A stretch of DNA of 36,065 nucleotides from Desulfobacterales bacterium (GTDB taxonomy: Bacteria; Desulfobacterota; Desulfobacteria; Desulfobacterales; Desulfosalsimonadaceae): the NCBI GenBank assembly GCA_018334555.1, contig JAGXLR010000009.1, positions 1-36,065 of the forward strand, read 5' to 3'. The notes beneath the pieces were generated by a model that saw only the letters and a program-made list of their open reading frames with translations, ran no database searches and was not told the DNA's origin. Of this stretch, positions 7,631 to 25,453 are shown one piece after another. The position numbers and the translations under genes were made by a program. Each line of letters begins with the position of its first letter. Position 1 is the first letter of the stretch.

Positions 7631-8591
7631 GCCATATTCGGCCCGTTCGATGAGTTCAATCTGGATGTCTCTGTTTAACATGACAAAATAGGCGTTGTAC
7701 CCGGAGATGCGGACCATGAGTTGGCGATAGGCATCGGGGTTGGCCATGGCATCCTTGAGGGTTTCTGAGTTGACCACGTTGAACTGCATCTGCATGCCGC
7801 CCATATCGAAGTAGGTCTTGACGTAGGAGGCCATGATATCAACGGTTTTTTCCCGGGAATCCTGGGGGCTTGGGTTGAGCTTGACATTGAACGCGATGTT
7901 GTTGTCCATGGTGAAGTATATGGGCGGTTTCATCAGTTATGCGGTAGGGGTTTAGCATCCGTTTGTCAATGGCACCCAGTTCGCCCCAAGCCATGACACC
8001 CTGGGCATCCGGGTAGATGACCACCCCGATATTGTCGTTCGTGGTGGTGGTTCCGGCCACCAGGTCGTTTTTGCGTATGATGGGCTGTTTACCGGCCATC
8101 AGGTAAGCAAATGCATGGGCCTGGCGAAGCTCCGGAATCCATGGCGTGTCCTTGGCCTGGGTCTCAAACCCGTTTTCCCGGAACCATTTTGTCAGGAGCT
8201 GCGGACGTTCCGGGCAGATTTCCGGCATTTCGTTGAAATACCGATCAAGAAAGGGCTGAAGCCGAGGGAAATCAACTAGGCGGAAATGAGAAAGGTAGGG
8301 ATCGTCAAGGTATTTGACGCCCGGATCGGCCTTGTTCCCGGTCATTCGGTAGTGATGGCGGGAGCAAAGTTTTTGCGCGAGGTCCTTGTTTTTCTGATCA
8401 TAGGTCGATTTGCGGTAGGCGGTATCCTGCTGATGGGCTTTTTCAAGCATTTTTTGATGTTTTCGGCCCATCAGCTTAAGGAGCCCGTGGACCAGGGAGT
8501 TATAGAAAATTCGCCGGCTTTTCGAGGTGATGGGATATTTTGTCGTCACAAGCAGCGATTGCCAAAGGGAATAAAGATTTGCGGGTTTCAT
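7625..8591 (-). pseudogene. Internally deleted, frameshifted glycyl radical enzyme (PFL-like)
   Basis: The gene opens well: an ATG at 8591 with a GGAGG site ~10 nt upstream. The first ~218 residues match the N-terminal domain of pyruvate-formate-lyase-like glycyl radical enzymes (FYNSLVHGLLKLMGRKHQKM, AGKQPIIRKNDLVAGTTT). Near 7935 the homology jumps, with a change of frame, to the last ~100 residues of the family: YFTMDNNIAFNVKLNPSP, FDMGGMQMQFNVVNSETLKDA, and the glycyl radical motif RISGYNAYF with its Gly codon at 7702-7700. Full-length members have roughly 760-850 residues, so about 450-530 residues, including the catalytic Cys region, are missing. Neither piece can work alone. No activating enzyme (radical SAM) gene is next to it. 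The original substrate cannot be told. An assembly deletion is the main alternative to true decay. Confidence 0.85.
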
Positions 8592-8756: not shown

Positions 8757-10490
8757 TCATTCCTGCATGTTGATCACATCCCCGCCGGGCAGTCCCAGTT
8801 CCCAGGCCCGCAGAACGCGGCGCAGGAGTTTTCCGCTGCGGGTTTTGGGCAGGGCGTCGAGGAAAAGCACTTCACGAATCGCAATATCCGAATTCAGGTT
8901 GGCCTTCACATAGGCCTTGATCTCATAGTTCAGACGGTTCGAGGCGATATAGCCTTTTTTAAGCGTCAGAAACGCCTTTAAATAGGAAGCGTCTTCCTCT
9001 GAATTCGTGCCCTTGGAAATAACGGCGGCTTCGCTTACCGCCGGATGGGACGTCAGGATCTGTTCGACCTCAAACGGTCCGATCAGCTTGTCCCCGCCGG
9101 CTTTTAAGAGGTCGTCATTTCTTCCCTGATGGTAAAAATAGCCTTCTTCGTCGCAAATGGCGATATCACCGGTAACAAACCACTGGTCCCGCTTGAAATA
9201 TTTTCGGAACCGTCCGGTGTCCTGCCATATGTTATGCATCATGCCGGGCCATGGGGCCTTCAGGGCCAATTCCCCCAGGGAGAGAGGCGGCAGCTCTTCG
9301 CCGTCTTCATCCAATATGGTGGCGTATATGCCGGGGACCGGCTTGCCGATGGCCCCCGGCTTGATATCCATGCTCGGATAGTTGGCGATGCAGATGATTC
9401 CGGTTTCCGTCATCCACCAGTTGTCATGCGGATAGCAGTTCAGGTGCTTGCCGGCCCAGTAGAAAATATCCGGCACGAGGGGGGCGCCCACGGTGGCAAT
9501 ATGCTTGAGGGAACTCAAATCGTATCTGGATGGCAGATCGTCGCCGGCACTCATCAAATCCCTTATGATCCGCGGGGTTGTGTACCAGACGGTTACCTTA
9601 TGCCTCTCAATCGTCCAATACCAGTTGGCCGCAGTAAATGGGTCCCCCTGCACCACGGAGGTGATGCCGCAGAGCCACGCTGCAAATCCGCTGTATACCG
9701 TTCCGGTCACCCAGGCCGGGTCTGCATCCGTCCATAGCACGGTATCCGCTCTGACATCCAGCACCCACCGTGCGGTTGCCATCATTCCGGTCATATCCCG
9801 GTGCGTATGGACGATCCCTTTGGGCGGCCGTGTGGAACCGGAGGTAAAAATCATGTAGAGCGGGGTGTCCCCCGGCAGCGGTACGGCCGGAAAGTCCGAG
9901 GGCATCCGTCCAATTTTTTCGGATACCGGGGTTTCGTTGGGAAACAGGCCGGGGCCTTTGGACTGGTTGAGAAATATGTATTCCACCTGCGAGGCAAAAT
10001 CATAGGATAGTTTTTCCACCAGGTCCGGATGGGTCAGCACGCCTTTGGGCGCGGTGGACTCGAGCCGGATTTCAAGCTCATAAAAACCGGCGGTGGCGAA
10101 TATGGGACAAAAAATGACCCCCATGCGGGCGCAGGCGGCCATGGCAAAAAATGTTTCCGGCGAGGGGGGAAGCAGGGTAATCAGCCGATCCCCCTGGACA
10201 AATCCATGTTCGTGGAGCAGGTTCGCCCATTGACAGGATTTTTCCTTGAGCATCCGGTAGGTATAGGTTTCAATAACCCCCTGCTTCTGGAAAACCATGG
10301 CCGGGTGGTCGGCTCTACGGGGATCATCGGCCCACCGGTCAATGGATTCGGTGATAATATTCATCCGGTCATGGCCGTACCAGGAAAACTCTTTTTCGAT
10401 CTCCGCCCAGGAAAACTCCCGGCAGGCGTCATCATATGATTTCAGGTTGGCGGATTCGGTGTTCTGTGCGGGTATTCGTGCTTTAATCAT
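8757..10490 (-). CDS. AMP-forming acyl-CoA synthetase (acetyl-CoA-synthetase-like)
   Basis: A 577-residue adenylate-forming enzyme, last gene of the operon reading from 15403. A5 is DNWWMTETG, which resembles the acetyl/propionyl-CoA synthetase branch. A7/A8 is WFVTGDIAICDEEGYFYHQGRNDDLLKAGG. A10 is LPKTRSGKLLRRV with the catalytic Lys at residue 554. Its A3 loop is odd: FTSGSTRPPKGIVHTH has Arg-Pro where nearly all relatives have Gly-x. It should form an acyl-AMP and then acyl-CoA from a short- or medium-chain acid; the exact acid is unknown. Its ATG overlaps the deacetylase stop (ATGA), which implies translational coupling. The catalytic lysine lies in the same PKTRSGK context that is acetylated in Acs, so the neighbouring deacetylase may act on it. 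Confidence 0.88.
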   Translation of the reverse strand: MIKARIPAQNTESANLKSYDDACREFSWAEIEKEFSWYGHDRMNIITESIDRWADDPRRADHPAMVFQKQGVIETYTYRMLKEKSCQWANLLHEHGFVQGDRLITLLPPSPETFFAMAACARMGVIFCPIFATAGFYELEIRLESTAPKGVLTHPDLVEKLSYDFASQVEYIFLNQSKGPGLFPNETPVSEKIGRMPSDFPAVPLPGDTPLYMIFTSGSTRPPKGIVHTHRDMTGMMATARWVLDVRADTVLWTDADPAWVTGTVYSGFAAWLCGITSVVQGDPFTAANWYWTIERHKVTVWYTTPRIIRDLMSAGDDLPSRYDLSSLKHIATVGAPLVPDIFYWAGKHLNCYPHDNWWMTETGIICIANYPSMDIKPGAIGKPVPGIYATILDEDGEELPPLSLGELALKAPWPGMMHNIWQDTGRFRKYFKRDQWFVTGDIAICDEEGYFYHQGRNDDLLKAGGDKLIGPFEVEQILTSHPAVSEAAVISKGTNSEEDASYLKAFLTLKKGYIASNRLNYEIKAYVKANLNSDIAIREVLFLDALPKTRSGKLLRRVLRAWELGLPGGDVINMQE

Positions 10491-11524
10491 TTTATGAGTC
10501 CATATTGTGAATGAATTTTTCCCAGCTGTTCGATCAGACAGGCAGTCTCTTCATTCGCCGGTGGCGGCTTCGGGATCTCAACGCTATTTTTTATGAGTTC
10601 TAATAACACAGAACGGACACAATTGGCAAGTGCCCTGGGGTTATAGCCGCCTTCGAGCGAGAGAAAAATCGGGGGGTCCCCAACCGTTTTTTTGGCATGA
10701 ATGATCAGCCGGGTGATTGCCGCATACGCGGCCTCCGTCCACACGGATCGCCCCAGCGGATCATCCCGATGGGCGTCAAATCCTGCCGCCACCATAATCA
10801 ATTCCGGCTTGAAGTTGCGCACTACCGGCATCAGTATCGATTGATACAGCCGGATAATATCGTTGTCGGTCATTGAGCGTGAAATCGGGGCGTTAATGGT
10901 ATAGCCCGCGCCCCAGTCGCTGCCGGTCTGTTCGAGCCCCCCGGAGTAAGGATAGAGCATCAGGTCATGAGTGGAGATATAGAGCAGCCGGGGATCATGA
11001 TAAAAAAGCGATTGTAAGCCATTCCCGTGGTGGACGTCCCAGTCAACGACGAGTATACGTTCTAAATAATGCTTTTTTATGGCATATTTGGCAGCTATGG
11101 CGATGTTGTTGAATATACAGAACCCACCGGCCCGGTTGGCAAAGGCATGATGCCCCGGGGGACGCACCAGGCCGAAAAACCCGCTGCACTCGCCATTAAT
11201 CAGGGCGTCAATACCCTGGAGGCAGGCGCCGACGGCCAACCAGGCGGCCATGTAGGATTGTTCGGAAACCGGTGTGTCCGGCGCCAGGTTGGTGACATGC
11301 TGCTCGGCGGTTTGTAATACCCGCTGGATGTGTTCCGGCGAATGGATATCCTCGAGCCGGTCCATAGGGGCTGGGTTTGCTTGAAGGCAAAGCAGGCCTT
11401 CGCCAAAGTCCCGGTCCAGCATTCGGTAAATGGCGTCCAACCGTTTGGGATGCTCCGGGTGAAAATGACCGGTTTTATGCGCCATAAACCGGTCGTCCCT
11501 TGCTATCCCAATTTTTATTGCCAT
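10487..11524 (-). CDS. AcuC-type protein deacetylase (histone deacetylase family)
   Basis: A 345-residue protein with the zinc-dependent deacetylase signature: a His-His pair in RPPGHHAFANRAGGFCIFNN, metal ligands in VVDWDVHHGNG and AAGFDAHRDDP, and the LEGGYN segment near the C-terminus. All catalytic elements I can recognise are intact. In Bacillus, AcuC deacetylates and so reactivates acetyl-CoA synthetase AcsA. Here the gene lies between two AMP-forming acyl-CoA synthetase genes (15 nt after the AcsA stop, 4-nt overlap with the next ATG), which fits that role closely. No clear Shine-Dalgarno precedes its ATG, so translation probably depends on ribosomes finishing AcsA. Acetoin or polyamine deacetylation is a possible alternative. 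Confidence 0.88.
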   Translation of the reverse strand: MAIKIGIARDDRFMAHKTGHFHPEHPKRLDAIYRMLDRDFGEGLLCLQANPAPMDRLEDIHSPEHIQRVLQTAEQHVTNLAPDTPVSEQSYMAAWLAVGACLQGIDALINGECSGFFGLVRPPGHHAFANRAGGFCIFNNIAIAAKYAIKKHYLERILVVDWDVHHGNGLQSLFYHDPRLLYISTHDLMLYPYSGGLEQTGSDWGAGYTINAPISRSMTDNDIIRLYQSILMPVVRNFKPELIMVAAGFDAHRDDPLGRSVWTEAAYAAITRLIIHAKKTVGDPPIFLSLEGGYNPRALANCVRSVLLELIKNSVEIPKPPPANEETACLIEQLGKIHSQYGLIK

Positions 11525-11539
11525 GGCAGGTCTATACGC

Positions 11540-13495
11540 CTATAAAGAGGAGATGTCCACCCGGTCGGAAATCAGTTTGTCAATGACCGACTCATCGGCA
11601 ATGGTGGATGTATCGCCGAGTTCGTCGAGTTTATTGGCGGCGATTTTTTTGAGGATCCGCCGCATGATCTTCCCGCTGCGGGTTTTGGGGAGCCCCTCGG
11701 CCCATTGGATGACATCAATGGTGGCGATCGGCCCGATCTCTTTTCTCACCTGCCCAACAAGCTCCTTTTTCAGGTCATCGGAGGGGGTGACGCCGCTTTT
11801 TAAAATGATATAGGCGTATATGCCCTGGCCCTTAATGTCGTGGGGAAAGCCCACCACCGCGGCCTCAGCCACCTTTTTATTCAGCACCAGCGCGGATTCC
11901 ACCTCGGCGGTGCCCAGGCGGTGGCCGGACACATTGATGACGTCGTCGATGCGTCCGATAATCCAGAAATAGCCGTCTTCGTCCTGCTTGGCCCCGTCAC
12001 CCGTAAAATACATGCCGGGCACATGGCTGAAATAGGTGTCGCGGAACCGTTCATGGTCCCCGTAAACCGTTCGGGCGATACCCGGCCAGGGCTGTCGGAT
12101 GCAGAGGACACCTTCCTCTTCGGGGTATTTGACCGGCTCTCCCGTATCATCCAGGATTACCGGATCCACGCCGAAAAAGGGAAACGAGCAGGAGCCGGGT
12201 TTTATCGGGGCGACCGCGGGGAGAGGGCAGATCATATGGCCGCCGGTTTCGGTCTGCCACCAGGTATCAATTATGGGGCACCAGTCCCGGCCCACGTGAT
12301 GGAAATACCAGCGCCAGGCTTCCGGATTGATCGGCTCGCCGACCGTGCCCAGGAGCTTTAGCGAGGAGATGTCGTGCTTGGTTACATGGTGGTCGCCCTC
12401 CTTGGCCAGCGCTCGTATGGCGGTGGGGGCGGTATAGAATTTATTGACCCGGTATTTTTCGACAATCGCCCAAAATCGGTCAAAGTCCGGGTAGCTCGGT
12501 ACCCCTTCAAACATGACGCCTGACAAACCGTTGATCATGGGGCCATAGACAATGTAGTTATGGCCGGTAATCCATCCGATATCGGCAGTGCACCAGAGGA
12601 TTTCATCGTCTTTTAAGTCGAACACCAGCCGGGTGGTGATGGCTGAGTACAGGAGATAGCCGCCGTGGGTGTGCACCACCCCTTTGGGCTTCCCCGTGCT
12701 TCCGCTGGTATAAAGGATGAACAAGGGATCTTCCGCATCCATGGGCTCCGGTTCCACATAATCCGGCAGGTTCGGATCAGCCATCGCCTCCGCCCACCAG
12801 ATTTCCCTCTTGCCGTCCAATTGTTCGTCGGAGCCGGTGCGGTTGACCACGATCACGGTTTCCACATCAGGGCAGTTTTCAAGCGCCGCGTCCACATTTT
12901 TTTTAAGCGCTACAGTTTTGCCGGCGCGATACCCACCGTCTGCCGTAATCACGAGCCTGGCGCCGCAATCCTTGATCCGGTTGGCGATCGCCTCCGCGCT
13001 GAATCCGCCGAATACCACGCTGTGAATGGCCCCGATCCGGGCGCACGCCAGCATGGCCACCGGCAGTTCGATGATCATGGGCAGATAAATGACAACCCGA
13101 TCGCCTTTTTTGACGCCTTTTGATTTTAACACGCCGGCAAATTTGTTGACCTGCCGGTAAATATCGCCGTATGTATAGGTTCTGGCCTCATTGGGGTCGT
13201 CCCCCTCCCAGAAAAAGGCGACTTTGTCGCTGATCGTATCCATATGCCGATCCAGGCAGTTGGCCGATGCATTGAGCCTGCCGCCGCCGAACCATTCAAT
13301 TTTGGCCTCATGGAAATCGTATTTTAACACAAAATCCCAGTCCCTGTCCCATGTCAGATATTTCCCGGCCTGTTCCGCCCAGAACCCTTCAGGATCCGCT
13401 ACGGACCTGTCATAGAGTTCTTTATATTGCTCCCAGCTGTTAATAAAGGCGGTCTTTCGATACTGTTCCAAATGGGCGTCGTATTTTTCCGTCAT
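11540..13495 (-). CDS. acsA: Acetyl-CoA synthetase, AMP-forming
   Basis: A 651-residue protein of normal Acs length. The start is the ATG at 13495, with GGAGG about 7 nt upstream; a TTG one codon earlier is ignored. Motifs are A3 YTSGSTGKPKGVVHTHGG, WCTADIGWITGHNYIVYGP, DTWWQTETGG, YFTGDGAKQDEDGYFWIIGRIDDVINVSGHRLGTAE and A10 LPKTRSGKIMRRIL. With this start, the catalytic lysine in PKTRSGK is residue 609, the same number as the regulatory acetyl-lysine of Salmonella Acs. It makes acetyl-CoA from acetate, ATP and CoA. It is the second gene of the operon, 12 nt after the GNAT fusion gene, and is followed by a deacetylase gene. That context suggests control by reversible lysine acetylation. Confidence 0.95.
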   Translation of the reverse strand: MTEKYDAHLEQYRKTAFINSWEQYKELYDRSVADPEGFWAEQAGKYLTWDRDWDFVLKYDFHEAKIEWFGGGRLNASANCLDRHMDTISDKVAFFWEGDDPNEARTYTYGDIYRQVNKFAGVLKSKGVKKGDRVVIYLPMIIELPVAMLACARIGAIHSVVFGGFSAEAIANRIKDCGARLVITADGGYRAGKTVALKKNVDAALENCPDVETVIVVNRTGSDEQLDGKREIWWAEAMADPNLPDYVEPEPMDAEDPLFILYTSGSTGKPKGVVHTHGGYLLYSAITTRLVFDLKDDEILWCTADIGWITGHNYIVYGPMINGLSGVMFEGVPSYPDFDRFWAIVEKYRVNKFYTAPTAIRALAKEGDHHVTKHDISSLKLLGTVGEPINPEAWRWYFHHVGRDWCPIIDTWWQTETGGHMICPLPAVAPIKPGSCSFPFFGVDPVILDDTGEPVKYPEEEGVLCIRQPWPGIARTVYGDHERFRDTYFSHVPGMYFTGDGAKQDEDGYFWIIGRIDDVINVSGHRLGTAEVESALVLNKKVAEAAVVGFPHDIKGQGIYAYIILKSGVTPSDDLKKELVGQVRKEIGPIATIDVIQWAEGLPKTRSGKIMRRILKKIAANKLDELGDTSTIADESVIDKLISDRVDISSL

Positions 13496-13507
13496 CAACG
13501 GCCTCCT

Positions 13508-15403
13508 TCAGGATTGTGGGGATTGCGTCGGTGCCTCTTGCGGTTCGAATCGACAGTTAAGAATGATCATTCCGTTATCCAGAGATGAGTGGACCTTGTA
13601 GGGGAGTTTTCGGAAAAGTTTGATCATGGATTTATTGTCAGGCGATGTATAGGCCACCAGTCCTTCAATGCCGTTATTTTTGGCGGTTTCAGCCAGTTTA
13701 TGAAGAATTAGGGTGGCAATGCCCTTTGCCTGCCAGGGGCGGGATACGGAAAATGCGATTTCTGCGATGTTTTTATTCGGCTCCAGCATATAGGCACCCA
13801 GCCCGATGACCGTCCCGAAGCCAAATTCCCCCGTCACGGCCAGAATCGTGAGGTTTTTGATGTAGTCGGTTTCTATCATGGACTCGACATCGTCTTTGAG
13901 GAAGGCGGTTTTTTCGTAAAAAAACCGGGCAATAATATCCTGACGGTCCAGGTTATAGAAATGCTCCTGGATGCGGCGCAAATCCACGGGTTTGGCCGGT
14001 CGGAACTTCACCGTTTGATCGCAGTATCTGCGGGATTCCTCCAAGCCGACGGGATAGACGCTGCGCAACGATTCGCTGAGTTTTCGTTCCGGACTCATCA
14101 AGCCGATATCCCGGGCCTTCTGAAACAATTCATCCCTGAAATCCGGGTGGGCCAGGCTGATCATGGCAGTGGCCCGCTCCTGTAAGTTCTTGCCGTAAAG
14201 ATTGACCGCCCCGTATTCGCTCACCACGTAGGAGACGTCGCTTCTCGGCACGACGACCGCCCCGCTCTCCAGAGTGGGGATAATGCGGCTGGTTTTTCCG
14301 TCCATAGAGGTCGAAGGGATGAGAATAATCGATTTGCCGTCCGGGCAGGCGTCCGTGCCCCTGACAAAGTCCAGCATGCTGGAAACCCCGGCAAAATAGT
14401 TATGCGGTAGCGCATCCACGGCCGCCTGCCCGGTCAGATCCATCTCCATGACCATGTTGACGGAAACCATCTTATTATGCTGGGCGATGACGGCGGGGTT
14501 GTTTACATAATCGGAAGGGGAGAACTCAATGGCCGGGTTGTCATGGACGAACTCATAGAGGTTTTTTGAGCCCACCGCATTGCTGGCCACCGCCTTGCCG
14601 TTATTGATGCCCTTATACCGATTGGTGATTACCCCCATGGAGACGAGATCCATGATGCCGTCGATGATAAACTGGGTATGAACCCCCAGGTCGTTTTTAT
14701 CCGAGAGGGCGAGCAGTATGGCTTTCGGGGTGGCCCCGAGGCCGAGCTGAAAGGTGGCGCCGTCTTCAATGAGATTGGCCACGATTTTGGCGATATTATG
14801 CGCAGTCTCGAATTCGGGCAGCTGGTCAAGGGTCAAAAGCTCTTCATCCTTTTCTACGATGATATCCACGTCATTGACATGGATAAAGCTGTGACCCAAA
14901 ACCCGGGGCATTTTAGGATTCACCTGCACGATGACCCGCTCAGCCGCGCGGGCGGCGGCCTGGCATACATCAACGGATATACCCAGGCTCATCCAGCCGA
15001 AATCATCCGGCGGCGAGGTCTGGATTAAGGCGGTATGGATGGGCAGGTGGCGTTTTAAAAAGAGACCGGGTACGGCGGAGATGTGCATAGGGGTGATAAA
15101 TGGGCGATTGGCGGAGAGATGCTTGGCGGTGGCCGATCCCTGGTAAATGTTTCTGATACTGAAATTCTCATTCTGACTGTCAAAGGCAAGACGCGTGATC
15201 GGCGAGTTCTCAATGCTCATTAGCCGGACGATTTCAAGGTCCGGAAACAGGTGGGCCGATTTTACAAGGTTCTCAACGAGGTGCTGCGGTTCGGCACAGG
15301 AGGAGCCGATGAAAACCCGCTGGCCGGATCGAATGGTGCCCAATGCGTCTTCCACCGTACGCTGTTTCTCAATGTATTCATCCGGCCAATAGGTGGTTTT
15401 CAT
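13508..15403 (-). CDS. Acetyl-CoA hydrolase/transferase-like protein fused to a GNAT acetyltransferase domain
   Basis: A 631-residue two-part protein, first gene of the operon. Residues ~1-455 match the class I CoA-transferase family that includes 4-hydroxybutyrate CoA-transferase (FQLGLGATPKAIL, GVITNRYKG, FSPSDYVNNPAVIAQHN, VPRSDVSYVVSEYGAVNL). In active relatives the motif GxHTEM..DG supplies the catalytic Glu. Here it reads GVHTQFIIDG, with Gln at residue 244 (codon 14674-14672), so CoA transfer is doubtful. Residues ~460-625 form a GNAT domain with the acetyl-CoA-binding loop SRPWQAKGIATLIL near 549-562. Such fusions are known in databases, but I know of no assigned function. The position next to acsA and a deacetylase gene suggests a protein acetyltransferase whose N-terminal domain may sense acyl-CoA. 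A standalone metabolic enzyme remains possible. Confidence 0.88.
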   Translation of the reverse strand: MKTTYWPDEYIEKQRTVEDALGTIRSGQRVFIGSSCAEPQHLVENLVKSAHLFPDLEIVRLMSIENSPITRLAFDSQNENFSIRNIYQGSATAKHLSANRPFITPMHISAVPGLFLKRHLPIHTALIQTSPPDDFGWMSLGISVDVCQAAARAAERVIVQVNPKMPRVLGHSFIHVNDVDIIVEKDEELLTLDQLPEFETAHNIAKIVANLIEDGATFQLGLGATPKAILLALSDKNDLGVHTQFIIDGIMDLVSMGVITNRYKGINNGKAVASNAVGSKNLYEFVHDNPAIEFSPSDYVNNPAVIAQHNKMVSVNMVMEMDLTGQAAVDALPHNYFAGVSSMLDFVRGTDACPDGKSIILIPSTSMDGKTSRIIPTLESGAVVVPRSDVSYVVSEYGAVNLYGKNLQERATAMISLAHPDFRDELFQKARDIGLMSPERKLSESLRSVYPVGLEESRRYCDQTVKFRPAKPVDLRRIQEHFYNLDRQDIIARFFYEKTAFLKDDVESMIETDYIKNLTILAVTGEFGFGTVIGLGAYMLEPNKNIAEIAFSVSRPWQAKGIATLILHKLAETAKNNGIEGLVAYTSPDNKSMIKLFRKLPYKVHSSLDNGMIILNCRFEPQEAPTQSPQS

Positions 15404-15529: not shown

Positions 15530-15559
15530 TTGACACTTGAATACGTCCAATTGTATTTT
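15530..15559 (+). promoter_or_regulatory. Sigma70-type promoter for the nfeD-floA operon
   Basis: TTGACA (15530-15535) and TATTTT (15554-15559) are 18 nt apart on the plus strand. Transcription would start near 15566, so any protein start upstream of that (for example the in-frame TTG at 15537) is ruled out. This supports starting the long NfeD at 15618. It lies back to back with the acs-operon promoter. Confidence 0.45.
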
Positions 15560-15617
15560 TAACCTATCAAGATTACAATTATTTTTACCTATCCCGGATA
15601 CAGGATGCGTGCCCTGC

Positions 15618-17111
15618 ATGCAGGTTCCCCAAACATTTCGAAATCTTTGCGGAGTTCTGGTCGTTTCGCTGCTATTGGCGGTGCCACCCGCTGCCCCGCT
15701 TCATGCGCAGACGGCGGATACCCCGCAGCCGGGCCGTCCCGTGTTCGTCATACCGGTGTCCGGTACGGTGGATCCGGGTATGGCCGCATTTATCGAGAGG
15801 GCATGCGGGGAGGCCGCAAAAGCGCCGAACAGCCTGGTTATTCTGGAGATCAATACGTTCGGCGGGCGGGTGGATGCGGCCCTTGAAATTGTCGATACCC
15901 TGCTCACCGTGCCGGCCGAACAATCCATCGCATTCGTGAAAAAAAAAGCGATTTCCGCCGGCTCCCTGATTGCGCTTTCCTGCGGAGATTTGGCGATGCG
16001 GCCCGCAACGACCATTGGTGACTGCGCCCCCATCATCTATTCCCAGGAGGGGCCGAAGATGATGGGGGAGAAGTTTCAATCCCCGATTCGGGCCAAATTC
16101 AGGGCCCTTGCCAAACGAAACGGCTACCCCGAAGCCCTGACTGAAGCCATGGTAACGCCGGAAAAAGTCGTATATGCCGTGGAAATTAACGGGGAAAAAA
16201 AATATATGGACGGCCAGGCATTTGAAGACCTGACCCCGGAAGAAAAAGAGCGGGTGACCAAGAAAAAAACAGTGGTGGAAAAGGGGGAGCTCCTGACCAT
16301 GTCGGCTGCGGAGGCAGCGGATTTGGGATTTTCGTCCATGACTGTATCCAGCATCGACGGGATGCTGGAGAAAATGGGGGGCGGGCCATACAGCCGAAGC
16401 CGGATCGAGCCGTCCTGGTCCGAGACCATGGTGCGGTTTATCGGCAGCATCGCCCCCATATTGATGATGATCGGGTTGGCCGCCCTTTACATGGAAATGA
16501 AGGCCCCCGGATTCGGCGTCCCCGGTTTAGTGGGGCTGGCATGCCTGGCAGTGGTTTTTTTAAACCAGTACATGGTGGGCCTGGCCGATTATACCGAGCT
16601 TTTGATCATCGTGCTGGGCGTCGTGCTCATGGCCATCGAGGTCTTTGTCCTGCCTGGGTTCGGTATCGCCGGTTTTGCCGGGATCGTGTGCATCATTATC
16701 GGATTGATACTAACGTTTCAGGATTTCGTTATACCGGACCCGTCCATTCCATGGGAGACGGAGATCCTGTTGAATAATATCATCAAGGTTCTCGGGGCCT
16801 ATATCGTATCCTTCCTGCTGGGGTTGTTTTTTATCCGGTATGTGCTGCCCCGGTTTTCAACGGCCACGGAGGGTCCGTACCTGACATCGAGCCTTAAGGA
16901 CGCCCATTCGGATTCCCGGCAAACCAGCCGCGTCCATGCCGGCGATACGGGGGTGGCGATGACGGCCCTGCGGCCTTCGGGTAAGGTGAGAATCGGTGCG
17001 GATGTTTTTGATGTGGTAACGGAAAACGAATTCATCGAGCGGGGGGCGCCGGTGGTGGTATCTGAAATTTCCGGAAACCGGGTGATTGTCGCAAGAAAAG
17101 GGGAAGAATGA
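15618..17111 (+). CDS. nfeD: Long NfeD protein: ClpP-type membrane serine protease with NfeD domain
   Basis: A 497-residue protein. The start is taken at ATG 15618; GTG 15609 is a possible alternative. The ATG gives a clean signal peptide (LVVSLLLAVPPAAPLHA). Next is a ClpP/SppA-like protease domain: NTFGGRVDAALEIVDTL, then KKKAISAGSLIALSCGDLAM with the presumed nucleophile Ser in SAG near residue 113. There follow a membrane region of about four to five helices (residues ~275-420) and a C-terminal β-barrel (OB-like) NfeD domain (GDTGVAMTALRPSGKVRIG). Archaeal homologues cleave stomatin C-termini, and the flotillin-like floA gene is two genes downstream, matching the usual NfeD-flotillin pairing. 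It overlaps the next gene by 4 nt. The membrane location with the protease outside the cytoplasm is inferred from the signal. Confidence 0.88.
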   Translation: MQVPQTFRNLCGVLVVSLLLAVPPAAPLHAQTADTPQPGRPVFVIPVSGTVDPGMAAFIERACGEAAKAPNSLVILEINTFGGRVDAALEIVDTLLTVPAEQSIAFVKKKAISAGSLIALSCGDLAMRPATTIGDCAPIIYSQEGPKMMGEKFQSPIRAKFRALAKRNGYPEALTEAMVTPEKVVYAVEINGEKKYMDGQAFEDLTPEEKERVTKKKTVVEKGELLTMSAAEAADLGFSSMTVSSIDGMLEKMGGGPYSRSRIEPSWSETMVRFIGSIAPILMMIGLAALYMEMKAPGFGVPGLVGLACLAVVFLNQYMVGLADYTELLIIVLGVVLMAIEVFVLPGFGIAGFAGIVCIIIGLILTFQDFVIPDPSIPWETEILLNNIIKVLGAYIVSFLLGLFFIRYVLPRFSTATEGPYLTSSLKDAHSDSRQTSRVHAGDTGVAMTALRPSGKVRIGADVFDVVTENEFIERGAPVVVSEISGNRVIVARKGEE

Positions 17112-17587
17112 CTGCCGCATTGATCTTTCCCATTATTTTGCAGATGGCGGGTATTTTTGTCCTGCTGGCCGAGGTTATATTGCCCTCCGGCGGGGTTTTG
17201 ACCATTCTGGCCATCGGCTGCTTCGGTTATTCACTCTATTCGGTGTTTACCAACGTGTCCATGGCCGTCGGTATGATGTTTGTGGTGGCGGATATTATTA
17301 TCTTGCCCGTTGTTCTGATTGCCGGGTTAAAACTGCTCGCCTATTCGCCGGCAGCCCTTCGCAAATCCCTCAAGAAGACCGACGGTGTGACCTCGCAGTC
17401 CGAGAAATTGACGGGCTACATGGGCAGGAGCGGGAAGGCCATAACCCATCTTCGCCCGGCGGGCACGGCGTTGATCGAAGGCCGACGGGTAGACGTGGTC
17501 AGCCGGGGGGAGTTTATCGAAAGGGAAAAACCCGTTACCGTGATCGCGGTGGAGGGAAACCGGGTGGTGGTGCGGGAGTTAGAGTAA
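17108..17587 (+). CDS. Short NfeD-family membrane protein
   Basis: A 159-residue protein. Three hydrophobic segments lie in the first ~85 residues (LIFPIILQMAGIFVLLAEV, GVLTILAIGCFGYSLYSVF, VGMMFVVADIIILPVVLIAG). A soluble NfeD β-barrel domain (MGRSGKAITHLRPAGTALIEGRRVDVVSRGEFIEREKPVTVI) forms the C-terminus. It lacks a protease domain. Its ATG overlaps the stop of the long NfeD gene (ATGA), so they are translationally coupled, and floA follows after 46 nt. Such a protein likely sits in the same membrane complex as FloA. Its family is clear from the C-terminal domain it shares with its upstream neighbour; its own role is unknown. Confidence 0.85.
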   Translation: MTAALIFPIILQMAGIFVLLAEVILPSGGVLTILAIGCFGYSLYSVFTNVSMAVGMMFVVADIIILPVVLIAGLKLLAYSPAALRKSLKKTDGVTSQSEKLTGYMGRSGKAITHLRPAGTALIEGRRVDVVSRGEFIEREKPVTVIAVEGNRVVVRELE

Positions 17588-17611
17588 GAGTAAGATTAAG
17601 ATTAAGACTTA
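17582..17611. repeat. Five imperfect hexanucleotide units at the end of short nfeD
   Basis: GAGTAA, GAGTAA, GATTAA, GATTAA and GACTTA follow each other without gaps from the last codon of the short NfeD gene. The first unit contains its stop. The array ends 22 nt before the floA start and just upstream of the floA ribosome binding site, so a change in unit number would alter the nfeD-floA spacing but not a reading frame. Confidence 0.5.
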
Positions 17612-17633
17612 GGCAAAGATAGGAGAGAGCGTT

Positions 17634-18632
17634 ATGACACTGACCCATATTCTGTTTATCCTGCTTTTTATCGCCGTTATTGTGTTTATCTATTTTATCG
17701 GCTCCGCGATTTCCCTGTGGGTGCAGGCCCTGGTTTCAGGCGCGGCGGTGGGGCTTTTCAATATCGTGTTCATGCGGTTCCGAAAGATCCCGCCCAAATT
17801 AATCGTGAATGCAAAGATCATGGCCGTTAAAGCCGGGTTGGAGATATCCACCAACGATCTGGAATCCCATTATCTGGCCGGCGGGGACGTCATGCGGGTG
17901 GTACAGGCGCTGATCGCGGCGGATAAGGCCAATATCGACCTGATTTTCAACCGGGCGGCCGCTATTGATCTGGCCGGCAGAAATGTTCTGGAAGCCGTGC
18001 AGATGAGCGTCAACCCCAAGGTGATCGAAACGCCCATGGTGGCGGCCATGGCCAAAGACGGGATTCAGCTGCGGGCCACATCCCGCGTCACCGTGCGAGC
18101 CAATATTGACCGCCTGGTCGGCGGGGCCGGCGAGGAGACCATCCTGGCCCGCGTCGGTGAAGGCATCGTCACAACGATCGGCTCTTCCGACAGCCACAAG
18201 AACGTGCTTGAAAACCCGGACAGCATTTCCCGCCGCGTGCTCGAAAAAGGCCTGGATGCGGGAACCGCCTACGAGATTTTATCCATTGATATCGCGGATG
18301 TGGATGTGGGCAAGAATATCGGGGCCGAGCTCGAGACCGACCGGGCCGAGGCGGACAAGAAAATCGCCCAGGCCAAGGCGGAGGAGCGCCGCGCCATGGC
18401 CTATGCGGCCGAGCAGGAGATGAAGGCCAGGGTTCAGGAAATGCGCGCCAAGGTAGTGGAGGCGGAAGCCGAAGTCCCAATGGCCATGGCCGAAGCATTC
18501 CGAAGCGGCAACCTTGGGGTTATGGACTATTACCGGATGAAGAATATCGAAGCCGATACCCAGATGCGCGATACCATCGGCAAGCGCGAAGATGGCGGGG
18601 ATTATCCGGAAACGCCGGAGCATGAAGAATGA
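17634..18632 (+). CDS. floA: Flotillin-like protein FloA (YqfA / UPF0365)
   Basis: A 332-residue protein with a hydrophobic N-terminus (residues ~5-40) that anchors it in the inner membrane. The FloA-specific PHB-like region follows: [88 protein letters not shown] Glu/Ala-rich coiled coil ([35 protein letters not shown]) and an acidic tail complete it. FloA organises functional membrane microdomains with NfeD partners in Bacillus. Here both an NfeD protease and a short NfeD precede it in the same operon. An AGGAGAG site lies ~7 nt before the ATG. Length and motif order are normal. Confidence 0.95.
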
Positions 18633-18653: not shown

Positions 18654-19169
18654 ATGAATTTTGAGGTTCTGTTTCTATTGTTCATTTTGGGGGTCATGAT
18701 TTTTACCCAGATCCTCAAGCAGATGGCCCGGAAATCGGTAAAGAAGGCTGAAAAGCCCGCAGCCGGATGGCGCAAGGGGCTCGAGAATATACTGGAGGAG
18801 TTCAGACAGGAGATGGAAACCGGTAGGGAGTCCTCGGAAACCGAAGAGAAACCGGCCCGTGTCCGGTCCTGGTGGGAGGATCTGATGCCTGAAGAAGAGG
18901 CCCCCAAACAGACGGCTGCCGAAGCGGCGCCGGCAGAATCCGGGCGCGGCGCCGCTACCGACGAAGGGGAAAAATTTCGGGATGAGGCCGATAGCGGCTT
19001 CAGGCAGTGGGGGGCCGGGGCAAAAGCCCGGCAGGACGCATCCCCGGCCCCTGAAAGAGTCCCCCATCCGGCAAAAAGGGGGCGCCTATCCCGTCAGGAT
19101 TTGCGCCAGGCGGTGATTTGGTCTGAAATTTTGGCGTCGCCTTTAGGCATTCGGGGGCCTAAAAACTGA
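18654..19169 (+). CDS. Unknown single-pass membrane protein of the floA operon
   Basis: A 171-residue protein with one N-terminal membrane helix (VLFLLFILGVMIFTQIL, residues ~5-21), then a positively charged stretch (RKSVKKAEK), a long low-complexity acidic/Ala-rich linker, and a short conserved-looking C-terminal segment (RQDLRQAVIWSEILASPLGIRGP). The helix-linker-peptide layout suggests a tether that presents its C-terminal peptide to a partner in the cytoplasm, perhaps FloA or NfeD. I do not recognise a named family. AAGGTGG precedes the ATG, and the gene follows floA by 21 nt, so it is likely the last gene of the operon. Confidence 0.75.
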   Translation: MNFEVLFLLFILGVMIFTQILKQMARKSVKKAEKPAAGWRKGLENILEEFRQEMETGRESSETEEKPARVRSWWEDLMPEEEAPKQTAAEAAPAESGRGAATDEGEKFRDEADSGFRQWGAGAKARQDASPAPERVPHPAKRGRLSRQDLRQAVIWSEILASPLGIRGPKN

Positions 19170-19780: not shown

Positions 19781-19817
19781 ACTTGAAAATCGCTCAATTT
19801 AGGTTGTAGAAAGCTGT
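19781..19817. repeat. CGCTCAATTTAGG-family repeat, copy 1
   Basis: ACTTGAAAATCGCTCAATTT plus AGGT (19781-19804) is the exact reverse complement of 22368-22391. The following TAGAAAGCTGT also appears at 27744-27754, where it follows ACTTGCAAATCG after an apparent internal deletion. The repeat lies upstream of the CoA-transferase-family gene. Confidence 0.6.
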
Positions 19818-20117: not shown

Positions 20118-22304
20118 ATGGAAAAACGACCCGTTTTTTATCAAGATGTAGAGAAATGTGTGGATGCCGTTATTCAGAAAGTGGGCAAAAAAATCGTATT
20201 GGGTTTGCCGCTGGGCCTCGGCAAACCCAACGAGTTTGCTAATGCCATTTATCGCAGGGCCAAGAACGACCCTTCGATTGAACTTATTATTTGTACCGCC
20301 CTCTCCCTGGAGCGGCCGAAGGGTAACAGCGATCTGGAGAAACGGTTTCTCGAGCCGTTTGTTGAGAGAAAGTTTGGCGGCGTGGTGGATCTTGATTACA
20401 TGAGCGATCTTCGCGCCGGAGGGCTTCCTGAAAATGTCGAGCTGAGGGAGTTTTACGCCAAGGCCGGCGCCTACCTGAATGTGACCCATACGCAGCAGAA
20501 TTATATCAGCTCCAATTATACCCATGCATGGCGGGATATTCTGGATAACGACGTGAATGTGATCGCCCAAATGGTTTGTAAAAAAGAGCTTGACGGCAGA
20601 ACCCGCTATAGCATGAGCTGTAATCCGGAAGTCGCGCTTGATTTGGGACCGGCCATGCGGGAGCTTGAAAAAAAGGGCAAAAAGATTTGTATCATTGCCC
20701 AGATTAACCAGAATCTGCCGTTTATGTATGGGGATGCAGTGGTCGAACCCGAAATTTACGACATGGTGATCGATAGCTCAGCCTATTATTCCCGACTGTT
20801 CGGGGCTCCAAAAATGTCCATCCCTACGCCGGATTATATGATCGGTCTTCAGGCCAGCACCCTTATTAAAGACGGCGGCACCCTTCAGATCGGGATTGGC
20901 TCTTTGGGGGACGCCCTATGCTATGGCCTTCAGCTGCGCCATGAAAACAACGCCGAGTACAAACGGTTTATCAATGATACCCATATATATGAAAAATTCG
21001 GCCATGTGATTGACCGCGTCGGGGGGTTGGAGGCTTTTGACGAAGGCATCCTTGGGTCCACCGAGATGCTTGTTGACGGCTATCTTCATTTGCTGAAGAG
21101 CCATGTGGTCAAACGCAAGACCTATAACAGCGTGCCTATTCAGCGGTTGATCAATGAGGGCAAAATCGATGAAAAAGTAACCCCCAAGACCCTTGAGTAT
21201 CTGATCGAAGCGGGGGCCGTTCGTCCCCGGCTGTCTTCTGCGGATTTTAATTTTTTGTCCGAATTCGGAATTTTTAAATCCGGCATGAAGTTTAAAGACG
21301 GCGTGATCCATGCCGACGGTCAGGAGATCCCCGCGGATTTGTCCGATTCCCAAAACATGGAGCGGGTGATTCAACACTGTCTGGGCGACACGCTTAAGAA
21401 CGATATACTGATTCACGGCGGATTTTTTCTGGGACCGGAGGGCTTCTATCAGGCGCTCAATGATATGAGCGAAGAAGAGCGCCGGAAAATTTTTATGACC
21501 AGCGTTCTAAATGTCAACCAATTACACGGCAACAACCCGTATTACAGTGAAGAGCTAAAAGTGCTCCAGCGAAGGCATGGCCGTTTTGTCAATGCCTGCC
21601 TGATGGTAACGCTCTCCGGTGCAGTGGTTTCCGACGGCCTGGAAAACGGTCAGGTGATCAGCGGCGTCGGCGGGCAGTACAATTTTGTCTCCCAGGCTCA
21701 TGCCTTACCGGATGCGCGTTCAATTCTGATGTGCAAGGCCACCCGGGCCAGCGGCAAGAATATCGCCTCAAATATCGTTTTTAACTATGGCAATACAACA
21801 ATCCCCCGACATTTGCGCGATATCGTGATTACTGAATATGGGATTGCGGATTTAAGGGGAAAAACCGACAAGGAGGTTATCAGGCAGTTGGTAAATATCA
21901 CGGATTCAAGGTTTCAGGCCGAACTGCTTCAGAAGGCCAAGGATGCCAAAAAAATCCCCGCCAGCTATCAGATACCCGATCAGTTCCGGAACAACTATCC
22001 GCAGCGGCTGGAAGATGAAATGGCCCCCTATAAAAAAGCCGGTTTGTTTCCGCCCTTCCCTTTTGGGACGGATTTTACGGATGAGGAGCTGGTTATCGGA
22101 AAAGTCCTCAAATGGTTAAAATCACAGATGACAGAGGGCTTTACCAAGGTCTCGAGTCTGAGCAAGGCGATGACCATCCGAACCGTGCCGCAGGCGGCTA
22201 TGCCCTATTTGGAACGTCTGGGGCTGGATGCCCCAAATTCCGCCAAAGAAAAAATGATGCAGAAAATGGTAATATATGCCCTTCACGCGCAAAACGTCAT
22301 TTAA
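20118..22304 (+). CDS. Large acetyl-CoA hydrolase/transferase-family protein
   Basis: A 728-residue protein; the ATG at 20118 with GGAGG at 20106-20110 is preferred to the TTG one codon earlier. It belongs to the acetyl-CoA hydrolase/CoA-transferase family but is far longer than the usual 430-520 residues. The N-terminal CoA-transferase-like fold has KKIVLGLPLGLGKPNEF and DGGTLQIGIGSLGDAL. The motif STEMLVDG keeps the Glu (residue 316) expected as the catalytic nucleophile, in contrast to the fusion protein at 13508. An extra ~150-residue insertion (about 335-480) precedes the C-terminal domain with SGVGGQYNFVSQAHALPDARS and VITEYGIADLRGKTDKEV. It probably transfers or hydrolyses CoA thioesters; the substrate is unknown. 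The next gene on the same strand is a PEPCK-like gene 235 bp on. Confidence 0.85.
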   Translation: MEKRPVFYQDVEKCVDAVIQKVGKKIVLGLPLGLGKPNEFANAIYRRAKNDPSIELIICTALSLERPKGNSDLEKRFLEPFVERKFGGVVDLDYMSDLRAGGLPENVELREFYAKAGAYLNVTHTQQNYISSNYTHAWRDILDNDVNVIAQMVCKKELDGRTRYSMSCNPEVALDLGPAMRELEKKGKKICIIAQINQNLPFMYGDAVVEPEIYDMVIDSSAYYSRLFGAPKMSIPTPDYMIGLQASTLIKDGGTLQIGIGSLGDALCYGLQLRHENNAEYKRFINDTHIYEKFGHVIDRVGGLEAFDEGILGSTEMLVDGYLHLLKSHVVKRKTYNSVPIQRLINEGKIDEKVTPKTLEYLIEAGAVRPRLSSADFNFLSEFGIFKSGMKFKDGVIHADGQEIPADLSDSQNMERVIQHCLGDTLKNDILIHGGFFLGPEGFYQALNDMSEEERRKIFMTSVLNVNQLHGNNPYYSEELKVLQRRHGRFVNACLMVTLSGAVVSDGLENGQVISGVGGQYNFVSQAHALPDARSILMCKATRASGKNIASNIVFNYGNTTIPRHLRDIVITEYGIADLRGKTDKEVIRQLVNITDSRFQAELLQKAKDAKKIPASYQIPDQFRNNYPQRLEDEMAPYKKAGLFPPFPFGTDFTDEELVIGKVLKWLKSQMTEGFTKVSSLSKAMTIRTVPQAAMPYLERLGLDAPNSAKEKMMQKMVIYALHAQNVI

Positions 22305-22367
22305 AACCGGCTAAGGCAAATGAACTTGTTGATCATTGCCTGGAAATAGGGTTATAGATATTCTATA

Positions 22368-22525
22368 ACCTAAATTGAGCGATTTTCAAGTTTACCGCTG
22401 ACGCAGTAGATGCGGTGAAATTGGAAATCCCGGAGGGTTTCAAATTTTTTGATCAAAAAATGATTCAATGCCCTGAAAATAAAATAAAAATTAAACCTTA
22501 AAAAAATGAAACGCTCAATTTAGGT
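22368..22525. repeat. Inverted pair of CGCTCAATTTAGG-family repeats
   Basis: ACCTAAATTGAGCG (22368-22381) and CGCTCAATTTAGGT (22512-22525) are perfect 14-bp reverse complements about 130 bp apart, in the 235-bp gap between the CoA-transferase-like and PEPCK-like genes. The left arm extends to a 24-bp exact inverted match with 19781-19804. The right arm ends 15 bp before the PEPCK-like start codon and abuts its AAAGGAG ribosome binding site, so a stem could affect translation. Confidence 0.6.
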
Positions 22526-22539
22526 ATAAAGGAGATATT

Positions 22540-24177
22540 ATGGAAACCAGTCTTAATTTTGAAGATTTCGGGCGGAAACATCTGCGCCGTATTCATCGGA
22601 ATCTCCCCACACCGGCGCTCTATGAAAATATCGTAAAAAACCGGGAGGGGCAACTGGCGCATCTCGGTCCGGTGGTCGTTCGCACGGGCCATTATAATGA
22701 GATGCCGCCGGAGGACAAGTTTATCGTCAAGGATGCATTAAGCGAGGAAAAGGTTTTCTGGAGCGAAGAAAAAAACGAGCTTTCGGAAAATCACTTCGAC
22801 TCCCTGTTTCACCGGTTGTTGGCCTATATGCATGACAAGGAAGCCTATGTGCAGGACTGTCTGATCGGGAGTGTGCCCGAATATCAGATTCCGATCCGGA
22901 TTGTTACGGAGACGGCCTGGCACAGCCTGTTCGCCCGGAACATGTACTATCAGATCCATGACCCGGCACAACTCGAAGCGTTCGCGCCGGATTTTACAAT
23001 TATCCATATTCCCGGGTTTAACGCCATCCCGGAGCAGGACGGAACCCATTCATCGTCGTTTGTTATTTATAATTTAAGCCGGAAGCTGGTTTTAATCGGG
23101 GGGTCCAGTTATGCCGGGGAGATCAAGCAGGCGGTGTTTACGATTGCCAGTTACCTGATGCCGGCGCCGGTCTTTTGTATGCGATGTTCGGCCAATGTCG
23201 GACCGGATGGGGATGTGGCGATCTTTCTCGGCAGGGAGGAGACCGGAAAGACGACTTTGGCTGTGGATGAGAGCCGCCGGTTGCTTGGCGATCACCTCCA
23301 CGGATGGAGCGATAAGGGCATTTTCAACCTCGAGTGGGGGGGGTACGCGAAAATGTACCATCTGTCCGTCGAAGAACAACCGTTTATCTATGATTGTTCG
23401 CGAAAGTTCGGCACCCTGCTGGAAAATATCACCATTGATCCGGATGCCCGGCGGATCGATTTTAAAGAGGGAAGCCTGACGAAGAACACCAGAGGGGTCT
23501 TTCCGATTTCCCATATTCCGAATGCCATTCGCAGCGGAATCTTCGATCCCCCAAAAAATTTATTCCTGTTGACCTGTGATGCTTTTGGCGTTTTGCCGCC
23601 GATTGCCCGGTTGACGCCGGAACAGGCTGTTTATGCATTTTTATCCGCCTATACATCGAAGTTTACCCAGACGGATAGCGGTGAGTTCCAGCCGCAGGTG
23701 ATGTTTAACGTCTGCTTTGGGGATACGGCGCTTGCCCTTCCTGCCTATGCCTATGGCATGCGGCTTTTGGAAAATATTAGATCATACGATATTGCCTGTT
23801 GGCTCATGAATACCGGATGGATCGGGGAGCCCTCCTATAAAGGCGAACGCATCAAAATCCGCTATTCCAGGGCGCTGGCTAATGCGGCAATATCCGGTGT
23901 TTTTGATGATGTGGAATTCGAAACGGATCCGGTTTTTCAATATGAGGTCCCAAAGGCCTGCCCGGGCGTGGATGTGCCCGCCAATATACTGATTCCTCGT
24001 GAAGCAGCGGCAGACCCTGGGGATTATGACCTTCGCGCCAATCGATTGGTCGCTGAGTTCATAAAGGATTTTTCCCAATACGAAGACAAGATGCCGGAAG
24101 ATATGCGGACCATGCTTTCCCAGATCATATCCATGGATGACACCCTGGATCTGGAGGAGTTCGGATTTTCGATATGA
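22540..24177 (+). CDS. ATP-type PEP carboxykinase homologue lacking most catalytic residues
   Basis: A 545-residue protein that aligns end to end with ATP-dependent phosphoenolpyruvate carboxykinase: YAGEIKQAVFTIASYL, CMRCSANVGPDGDVAIF, HGWSDKGIFNLEWGGYAK, DFKEGSLTKNTRGVFPISHIPN, LTCDAFGVLPPIARLTPEQA, NTGWIGEPSYKGERIKI. By alignment from memory with E. coli PckA, the metal ligands K213, H232 and D269 are Q197, R215 and H252 here. The oxaloacetate-binding R65 is M55, and the P-loop GLSGTGKTT is GREETGKTT. K254/T255 (K237/T238) and R333 (R318) are kept. The reading frame is intact and family-like to the last residues, so it is maintained, but normal PEPCK activity is unlikely. An AAAGGAG site supports the start. 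Possible roles include a regulatory nucleotide-binding pseudoenzyme. Confidence 0.88.
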   Translation: METSLNFEDFGRKHLRRIHRNLPTPALYENIVKNREGQLAHLGPVVVRTGHYNEMPPEDKFIVKDALSEEKVFWSEEKNELSENHFDSLFHRLLAYMHDKEAYVQDCLIGSVPEYQIPIRIVTETAWHSLFARNMYYQIHDPAQLEAFAPDFTIIHIPGFNAIPEQDGTHSSSFVIYNLSRKLVLIGGSSYAGEIKQAVFTIASYLMPAPVFCMRCSANVGPDGDVAIFLGREETGKTTLAVDESRRLLGDHLHGWSDKGIFNLEWGGYAKMYHLSVEEQPFIYDCSRKFGTLLENITIDPDARRIDFKEGSLTKNTRGVFPISHIPNAIRSGIFDPPKNLFLLTCDAFGVLPPIARLTPEQAVYAFLSAYTSKFTQTDSGEFQPQVMFNVCFGDTALALPAYAYGMRLLENIRSYDIACWLMNTGWIGEPSYKGERIKIRYSRALANAAISGVFDDVEFETDPVFQYEVPKACPGVDVPANILIPREAAADPGDYDLRANRLVAEFIKDFSQYEDKMPEDMRTMLSQIISMDDTLDLEEFGFSI

Positions 24178-24181
24178 CGGC

Positions 24182-25453
24182 TCAGGGACTTTTTGGCGCC
24201 ATGGCGCTTTTTTCAAAGTTCAGCGTGGAAAAATAGTCCGCCATTGTCTCCGCGCGCCGGATCCGTTCGACGGTGCCGTCCTTTCTCAGCAAAAGCTCCT
24301 GAGGCCGCAGCTTGGCGTTATAGTTAAACCCCATGGCATGCCCGTGTGCCCCGGTATCCTGAATAACCAGGGTATCTCCGGCCTCGATTTTCGGAAGCCT
24401 GCGTTGAACAGCGAATTTGTCAATATTCTCACACAGGGATCCGACGACATCAACGGTTTCTGCCGTTGTTTCGGTCAAATCTTTGCCCAGCACATCGATA
24501 TGATGATAGGTGTTATACATACCCGGACGCATAAGGGCTGACATGCATGCATCCACCCCGATATATTTCCGATAGATATCCTTATGATTGATTGCTTTTG
24601 TCACCAGAACGCCGTGGGGACCGGTCATGTAACGGCCGCTTTCCATGTAGAGTCTGGGGGCATCCCCGTTTCTCGCTTTGAACGCCTCAAACACCTTTGT
24701 AATTTCGCGGCCCATCGCCTCGATGTCCAACGGTCGGTCCTCCGGTCGGTAGGGAATCCCCAACCCTCCGCCGATATTGATGAATTCGAATTGAATGCCC
24801 AATTCTCCGGATAACCATTCGACCATATCCAAAAGCATTTTTGCGGTCTCAACCATGTATTCGTGGCATCGCTCATTAGAGACCAGCATGGTATGCAGTC
24901 CAAAGCGTTCGGTCCCGAGATCCCGCATTTTTTTATAGGCATGGCGAATCTGATCATGGCTGACGCCGTATTTGGCTTCAACCGGATTGCCGATAATGGT
25001 ATTTCCGGAGCGGCGGGGCCCCGGATTATATCGAAAGCTGATGAGCCCAGGAACAACCGGCAGCTTTTCAATAAGGCTGATATCATCCAGATTCAGTATG
25101 CAGCCACCGTCATCCAGAGCCGCTTCAAAATCTTCGATTGTCGTATTATTCGAAGTAAACATGATCTCCTCGCCCCGGGCGCCGATCCTCCGGGTTAACA
25201 CCAGCTCCGGCACCGAACTGCAGTCGAAGCCGAATGCCATATCTCTCATGATGGACAAGATAGAGGGGTTTGGCAGCGCTTTTACGGCAAAAAATTCTTT
25301 GAATCCGTCGATCGCTGTAAACACTTTTTTCAATTTTTCGCCGGTCTCCCGGATACCGGTTTCATCGTAGATATGAAAAGGCGTCCGGAAATGGTCGCAA
25401 ATTTCCGGCAGAACAGGAAAAAGACGGTTTTTAAAGTTCTCTGTCATTGGCAT
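24182..25453 (-). CDS. lysA: Diaminopimelate decarboxylase-like PLP enzyme
   Basis: A 423-residue fold-type III PLP enzyme. The PLP lysine lies in FFAVKALPNPS (about residue 58). The Gly-rich phosphate site is INIGGGLGIPY. ESGRYMTGPHGVLVT matches the conserved EPGR region. GVDACMSALMRPGMYNTYHHI and GSLCENIDKFAVQRRLP carry the C-terminal catalytic Cys motif, followed by GAHGHAMGFNYN. These fit diaminopimelate decarboxylase, the last step of lysine synthesis, better than ornithine or carboxynorspermidine decarboxylase, though sequence alone cannot exclude another diamino acid substrate. AGGA about 8 nt before ATG 25453 supports the start. It converges on the PEPCK-like gene with only 4 bp between the stop codons. 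Confidence 0.82.
   Translation of the reverse strand: MPMTENFKNRLFPVLPEICDHFRTPFHIYDETGIRETGEKLKKVFTAIDGFKEFFAVKALPNPSILSIMRDMAFGFDCSSVPELVLTRRIGARGEEIMFTSNNTTIEDFEAALDDGGCILNLDDISLIEKLPVVPGLISFRYNPGPRRSGNTIIGNPVEAKYGVSHDQIRHAYKKMRDLGTERFGLHTMLVSNERCHEYMVETAKMLLDMVEWLSGELGIQFEFINIGGGLGIPYRPEDRPLDIEAMGREITKVFEAFKARNGDAPRLYMESGRYMTGPHGVLVTKAINHKDIYRKYIGVDACMSALMRPGMYNTYHHIDVLGKDLTETTAETVDVVGSLCENIDKFAVQRRLPKIEAGDTLVIQDTGAHGHAMGFNYNAKLRPQELLLRKDGTVERIRRAETMADYFSTLNFEKSAMAPKSP

Follow-up and report, generated by a model that had tools for sequence, protein, structure and literature searches.

PEP carboxykinase (PEPCK), which converts oxaloacetate and ATP to PEP, CO2 and ADP, is described in textbooks, and its Mn2+ site is regarded as unvarying. 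The ligands of this catalytic Mn2+ are K213, H232 and D269, and R65 is the substrate arginine. In PEPCK structures, Mg-ATP is held by G253, K254, T/S255, D268, R333 and R449, the Thr or Ser at 255 coordinates Mg2+, and Y207 belongs to the substrate pocket (E. coli PckA numbering throughout, with 449 being presumably the E. coli number of that arginine). A related P-loop fold is found in HPr kinase/phosphorylase and other PEPCK-superfamily kinases, which offer a model for the phosphorylation of proteins or metabolites. Here we analyzed a window of 36,065 nucleotides from the 3.2-Mb draft genome of a Desulfobacterales bacterium, in which a gene at 22,540–24,177 on the forward strand encodes a PEPCK_ATP-family paralogue with Q197, R215 and H252 in place of K213, H232 and D269. 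Like PckA (EC 4.1.1.49; T. thermophilus 1j3b, E. coli 1aq2), to which it is homologous over its whole length (about 43% to T. thermophilus), the protein has the Walker A lysine and threonine, D268, R333, R449 and Y207. Unlike PckA, it has other residues at K213, H232, D269, E270, L249-S250-G251 and, in the window's family, R65, and it has an additional C-terminal tail and a fixed neighbor gene. A full-text search of the open-access literature found no published description of such a paralogue, and there was no match in PHROGs.

The initial annotation of this locus, made from sequence, described an intact frame of 545 residues with a strong PEPCK fold signature, and both descriptions hold: the ORF is uninterrupted over 545 codons, and PF01293 (PEPCK_ATP), the only Pfam match of the 545-residue product, aligns at 540 bits over profile positions 2–463 of 465 (462 covered), with no match to the HprK Pfam family. 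An AF2 model built on a shallow alignment of 14 sequences reached a mean pLDDT of 63, and Foldseek placed its nearest fold among PEPCKs; the active-site segments 207–224, 232–276 and 285–336 fell under 50, too weak for metal-site geometry. The protein scores 494.5 against the pckA equivalog TIGR00224, whose cut-off is 590, and it is likewise under the cut-off of all other NCBIfam pckA models.

We assigned residues from phmmer alignments of the window protein to PDB chains. The mutated residue of the E. coli D269N chain 6com (GDNEHGW) aligns to H252, and that of the R65Q chain 6crt (TGQSPKDK) aligns to M55. The same registers equate K213 with Q197, H232 with R215, L249-S250-G251 with R232-E233-E234, K254 with K237, T255 with T238, D268 with D251 and R333 with R318. 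Each residue call of the initial annotation is thus right, both for the replaced positions (the metal triad, R65 and the LSG of the P-loop, now REE) and for the retained P-loop Lys-Thr and R333 equivalents. In the window, E54-M55, replacing G64-R65, is encoded at 22,699–22,704, the codon of Q197 at 23,128–23,130, that of R215 at 23,182–23,184, the Walker A loop GREETGKT (G231–T238) at 23,230–23,253, and D251-H252, in which D268 is kept and D269 is His, at 23,290–23,295. The canonical loop is GLSGTGKT, so LSG is gone while the pattern GxxxxGK[ST] is preserved.

We compared 37 paralogues, drawn from relatives of the window genome, an order-level search (291 genomes) and a genome_contigs scan, with 59 canonical PckA sequences. 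At H232, which is His in all 59 canonical proteins, 36 paralogues have Arg and one has Gln; D269, also invariant in the canonical set, is His in 35 of 37; and the invariant L249 is Arg in all members except one. K213, again fixed in the 59, is Gln in 30 paralogues and still Lys in one, and its replacements vary (Q, H, L, E, R, D), as do those of E270. Five switches are clade-wide (G64E, H232R, L249R, a Ser-to-Ala change four residues past the P-loop lysine, and D269H), and three of them belong to the metal site or P-loop. G64E is fixed in 31 members, and R65 is still Arg in seven but gone in the window's family. In contrast, G253, K254, T255 (as T or S), D268, R333, R449 and Y207 are kept in 36 or 37 of the 37, and Walker A fits GxxxxGK[ST] in every one. 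The switch of metal-site residues is far beyond chance.

Individual members depart from this pattern. The single paralogue with Ala at L249 (L118) has Asn rather than Glu at position 64, and this one case may point to a salt bridge joining the new Glu64 to the new Arg249. A partner-paired paralogue at L028:1480–3174 (genome G059) has GGQ for GDD and is the only member to have also lost D268, which may take it still further from nucleotide chemistry. A second paralogue copy in genome G074 (L138:4409–6043), lying away from the partner gene described below, carries Gln at H232 (Q-Q-H) and has the C-terminal tail.

Without the Mn2+ ligands and R65, we infer that oxaloacetate binding and decarboxylation would be impossible in the usual way, and the residues at these positions suggest that the paralogue very probably no longer catalyzes the PEPCK reaction. 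That the protein is still a PEPCK, or a related carboxylase or decarboxylase, with its metal site rebuilt is improbable. Such a reading would fit its 45–53% identity to canonical Desulfobacterota PckA and the presence of Y207 and R333, and E. coli K213S was crystallized with ATP-Mg-Mn (2py7, by its PDB title), so loss of a single ligand need not abolish metal binding. Here, however, all three ligands are replaced, and one of the replacements is a cationic Arg that is almost fixed. In addition, the window's family lacks R65, canonical pckA copies exist alongside, and the score lies under every NCBIfam pckA cut-off. Partial metal binding might persist in L040, which retains D269 and R65.

The loss of several catalytic residues in a metagenome-assembled genome could also signal a decaying pseudogene, a frameshift, or a sequencing or assembly artefact. 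We rejected this explanation, to which we give a negligible probability, because the same replacements occur in 36 further sequences, in intact frames from independent assemblies, and because pairwise dN/dS for the paralogue is 0.05–0.10, a sign of strong purifying selection. The corresponding values are 0.03–0.09 for canonical PckA and 0.06–0.09 for the partner gene, all of them rough because dS nears saturation in several pairs. The 36 sequences come from some ten families within a single order of Desulfobacterota. Orthologues from the same family occur in 25 genomes among 60 relatives, at 65–87% identity and with the same residue set, and named database neighbors, at 69–86% identity, are Desulfobacterales MAGs. 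We found no paralogue beyond the order in a phylum sample of 395 genomes (E <= 1e-160), where all 20 out-of-order matches inspected were canonical; the phylum was the reach of this search, with a pattern-based scan covering what lies beyond it, and the genomes sampled were mostly drafts or MAGs.

Most paralogue-bearing genomes also carry a canonical pckA. In the window genome this gene lies on contig C81, where the contig end truncates it; the copy belongs to the E. coli type and has an intact KHD and GLSGTGKT. The initial annotation had proposed a new function (nucleotide sensor, kinase-like activity or regulator) rather than decay, without foreseeing the link to the CoA-transferase-like gene described below, and had pointed to further homologues and a canonical pckA in the same genome as checks; both were found, no close strain showed a triad reverted to the canonical residues, and the clade-wide fixation, the canonical-like dN/dS and the pckA elsewhere in the genome together support its proposal.

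In a maximum-likelihood tree (LG+I+G4) including the 36 paralogues that were complete enough, the paralogues form one clade (UFBoot 99) that arises from within canonical Desulfobacterota PckA and has a stem of 0.27 substitutions per site. Its sister is the canonical PckA of a family of the same order, f67 (UFBoot 100), and two genomes (G194 and G238) hold both a paralogue and a canonical copy of this f67 sister group. The gene is very probably a neofunctionalized duplicate of a Desulfobacterales ATP-dependent PEPCK. The earliest lineage to split off within the clade, L040, carries D-R-D in place of the metal triad together with R65. This single branch suggests that H232R and the loss of K213 preceded D269H, and that R65 was lost last.

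Directly upstream of the paralogue, on the same strand, lies a gene (20,118–22,304, +) for a 728-residue protein resembling family-I CoA-transferases and acyl-CoA hydrolases, which we call the partner and which is about 729 residues long across relatives. Its C-terminal half contains an AcetylCoA_hyd_C domain (131.8 bits against a gathering score of 23.7), and it is related to 4-hydroxybutyrate CoA-transferase (3gk7) in two stretches. Compared with family-I CoA-transferases and acetyl-CoA hydrolases, it matches the C-domain and part of the N-domain and conserves GVGGQ, EYGIA and TEM, but is about 280 residues longer and scores far under the named NCBIfam models. The motifs GTLQIGIGSLGD, TEM, SGVGGQ and EYGIA are kept. 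Between the two domains, in the region that contains the catalytic Glu of family-I enzymes, an invariant Glu forms part of a (T/S)EM motif. The local alignment to the family-I enzyme ends before this motif, and this Glu may be the catalytic nucleophile of family I. An AF2 model of the partner, again from a shallow alignment, had a mean pLDDT of 49, too weak for docking.

The pairing of the two genes is close to obligate. In the order-level sample the partner is present in 24 of 24 paralogue-bearing genomes and adjacent and co-directional in 23 (in G015, G016, G238 and G244 one gene of the pair is a contig-edge fragment). In keeping with this pairing, genus g5 of the same family has no paralogue and at best a distant partner homologue (47–48%). 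Partners paired with a paralogue form one clade of the partner tree (support 0.86). The exceptions are L138, without a partner, and L122 (genome G199), which lies 1 Mb from a partner that still falls inside the paired clade; two further genomes (G177 and G257) have a partner of this clade without a visible paralogue, at a contig end in both. Only four conservative residue switches separate paired from solo partners, with no clear interface signal.

The adjacency could be a legacy of the site at which the duplicate inserted, the paralogue having a new function unrelated to its neighbor. Within family f1 the convergent LysA-like decarboxylase gene (24,182–25,453, −), a conserved flank in that family, and pil genes are syntenic too, and partner homologues occur elsewhere without the paralogue: among those of other clades, L154, L156 and L157 stand beside the same LysA-like gene, and L151 and L160 stand downstream of an acetyl-CoA synthetase. 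In other families, by contrast, the partner alone stays adjacent while every other neighbor changes. We found none of the other window genes around the pair in families f7, f8, f25, f30, f40, f60 and f67, and no recurrent third gene around it outside family f1. We therefore consider an unrelated function unlikely. The LysA-like decarboxylase is probably not functionally tied to the paralogue.

The partner and the paralogue are separated by 235 bp in the window and by about 70–140 bp in several relatives. A dispersed MITE-like repeat family, marked by the 22-mer CTTGAAAATCGCTCAATTTAGG (108 genome copies at <=2 mismatches, against 0 for a control pattern), occupies the intergenic regions on both sides of the partner in inverted arrangement, at 19,781–19,811 and 22,361–22,391 (also 22,509–22,525), and accounts in part for the wide gap.

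The paralogue also has a derived C-terminal tail (about residues 519–545; 24,094–24,174, +) of some 20 residues, roughly PExMRxMLSQIISxDDxLDLxxFGFSI. All paralogue sequences that are complete at the C-terminus have it, L040 and the copies unlinked to a partner among them, and the canonical PckA sequences compared lack it. The tail is as conserved as the body but no more so (entropy 1.12 for residues 519–534, 1.28 for the whole tail and 1.12 for the body).

Because the Mn2+ ligands are lost, the ATP site is kept, the tail is new and the neighbor is nearly obligate, we read the paralogue as neofunctionalized and acting with its partner. Judged from sequence, it may serve the CoA-transferase-like protein as an accessory or regulatory subunit that depends on ATP, a reading to which we give a probability of roughly 0.45. 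The paralogue would bind Mg-ATP; the new arginines (H232R, L249R) and histidine (D269H) would replace the lost Mn2+ charge and bind an anion such as the gamma-phosphate, a carboxylate or a CoA phosphate; and the protein, docked through the C-terminal tail, would gate CoA transfer or hydrolysis by the partner. Acyl-CoA turnover would then track energy charge, and canonical PckA would handle gluconeogenesis. Pseudoenzyme regulatory paralogues that stand beside an active enzyme share with this protein the retention of ligand-binding residues, the loss of catalytic residues and co-inheritance with another enzyme, but here that neighbor is an unrelated CoA-transferase-like enzyme and the regulation is putative. 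Against a regulatory subunit, the conserved adjacency may stem from a shared pathway rather than a complex.

The main rival to a regulatory subunit, somewhat less probable though still a serious contender, is that the paralogue works as a phosphotransferase on some new substrate, in which case it would use Mg-ATP alone and the new Arg and His residues to phosphorylate a carboxylate or a protein. A protein acceptor would perhaps be the paralogue's own H252 or the partner; the partner would use or make the product, and the two would be a two-step acyl-activating system. Strict conservation of K254, T/S255, D268 and R333, which grip and polarize the phosphates of ATP, goes beyond the needs of a mere scaffold, a legal Walker A is present in all members, and the motif with the apparent catalytic Glu is retained in the partner. 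However, the paralogue has no sequence match to HPr kinase/phosphorylase or the related kinase families, the positions that we take to be equivalent to the HPr kinase catalytic His and second Asp are replaced and not conserved, the site has gained no conserved acid, and the varied replacements of K213 and E270 look more like lost catalysis.

Taken more broadly, we tentatively propose, short of even odds, that the paralogue is a PEPCK fold with fixed arginines and a histidine in place of the catalytic Mn2+, and that it makes up, together with the long CoA-transferase-like protein, an ATP-coupled acyl-CoA system of sulfate-reducing bacteria that has not been described before. This system would be a CoA-transferase/hydrolase gated by energy or else an acyl-activating enzyme of two proteins. 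A functional link to the CoA-transferase would mean that energy-limited anaerobes couple acyl-CoA turnover to the level of ATP by a new route. The clade is a natural experiment in which a P-loop carboxykinase becomes something else, its metal ligands turning to Arg, His and Gln with the ATP site kept. The transition can be read against L040, an intermediate that has D-R-D and R65, and against a canonical sister group that still exists. Automatic annotation likely labels the paralogue pckA, which would credit these sulfate reducers with a second gluconeogenic enzyme.

Elsewhere in the window, genes for an AMP-dependent ligase, a histone-deacetylase-family (AcuC-like) protein, an acetyl-CoA synthetase and an acetyl-CoA hydrolase-GNAT acetyltransferase fusion lie in a row at 8757–15,403 (−), an arrangement that resembles a module for acetate activation, with control by lysine acetylation and deacetylation built in. 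Genes for NfeD1b, NfeD and the flotillin FloA follow in series at 15,537–18,629 (+), and after the FloA gene comes a 171-residue protein without a family match (18,654–19,166). At 7839–8591 (−), a 250-residue protein matches only the first 130 or so positions of the pyruvate formate lyase-like PF02901, and is either a fragment or a short PFL-like protein.
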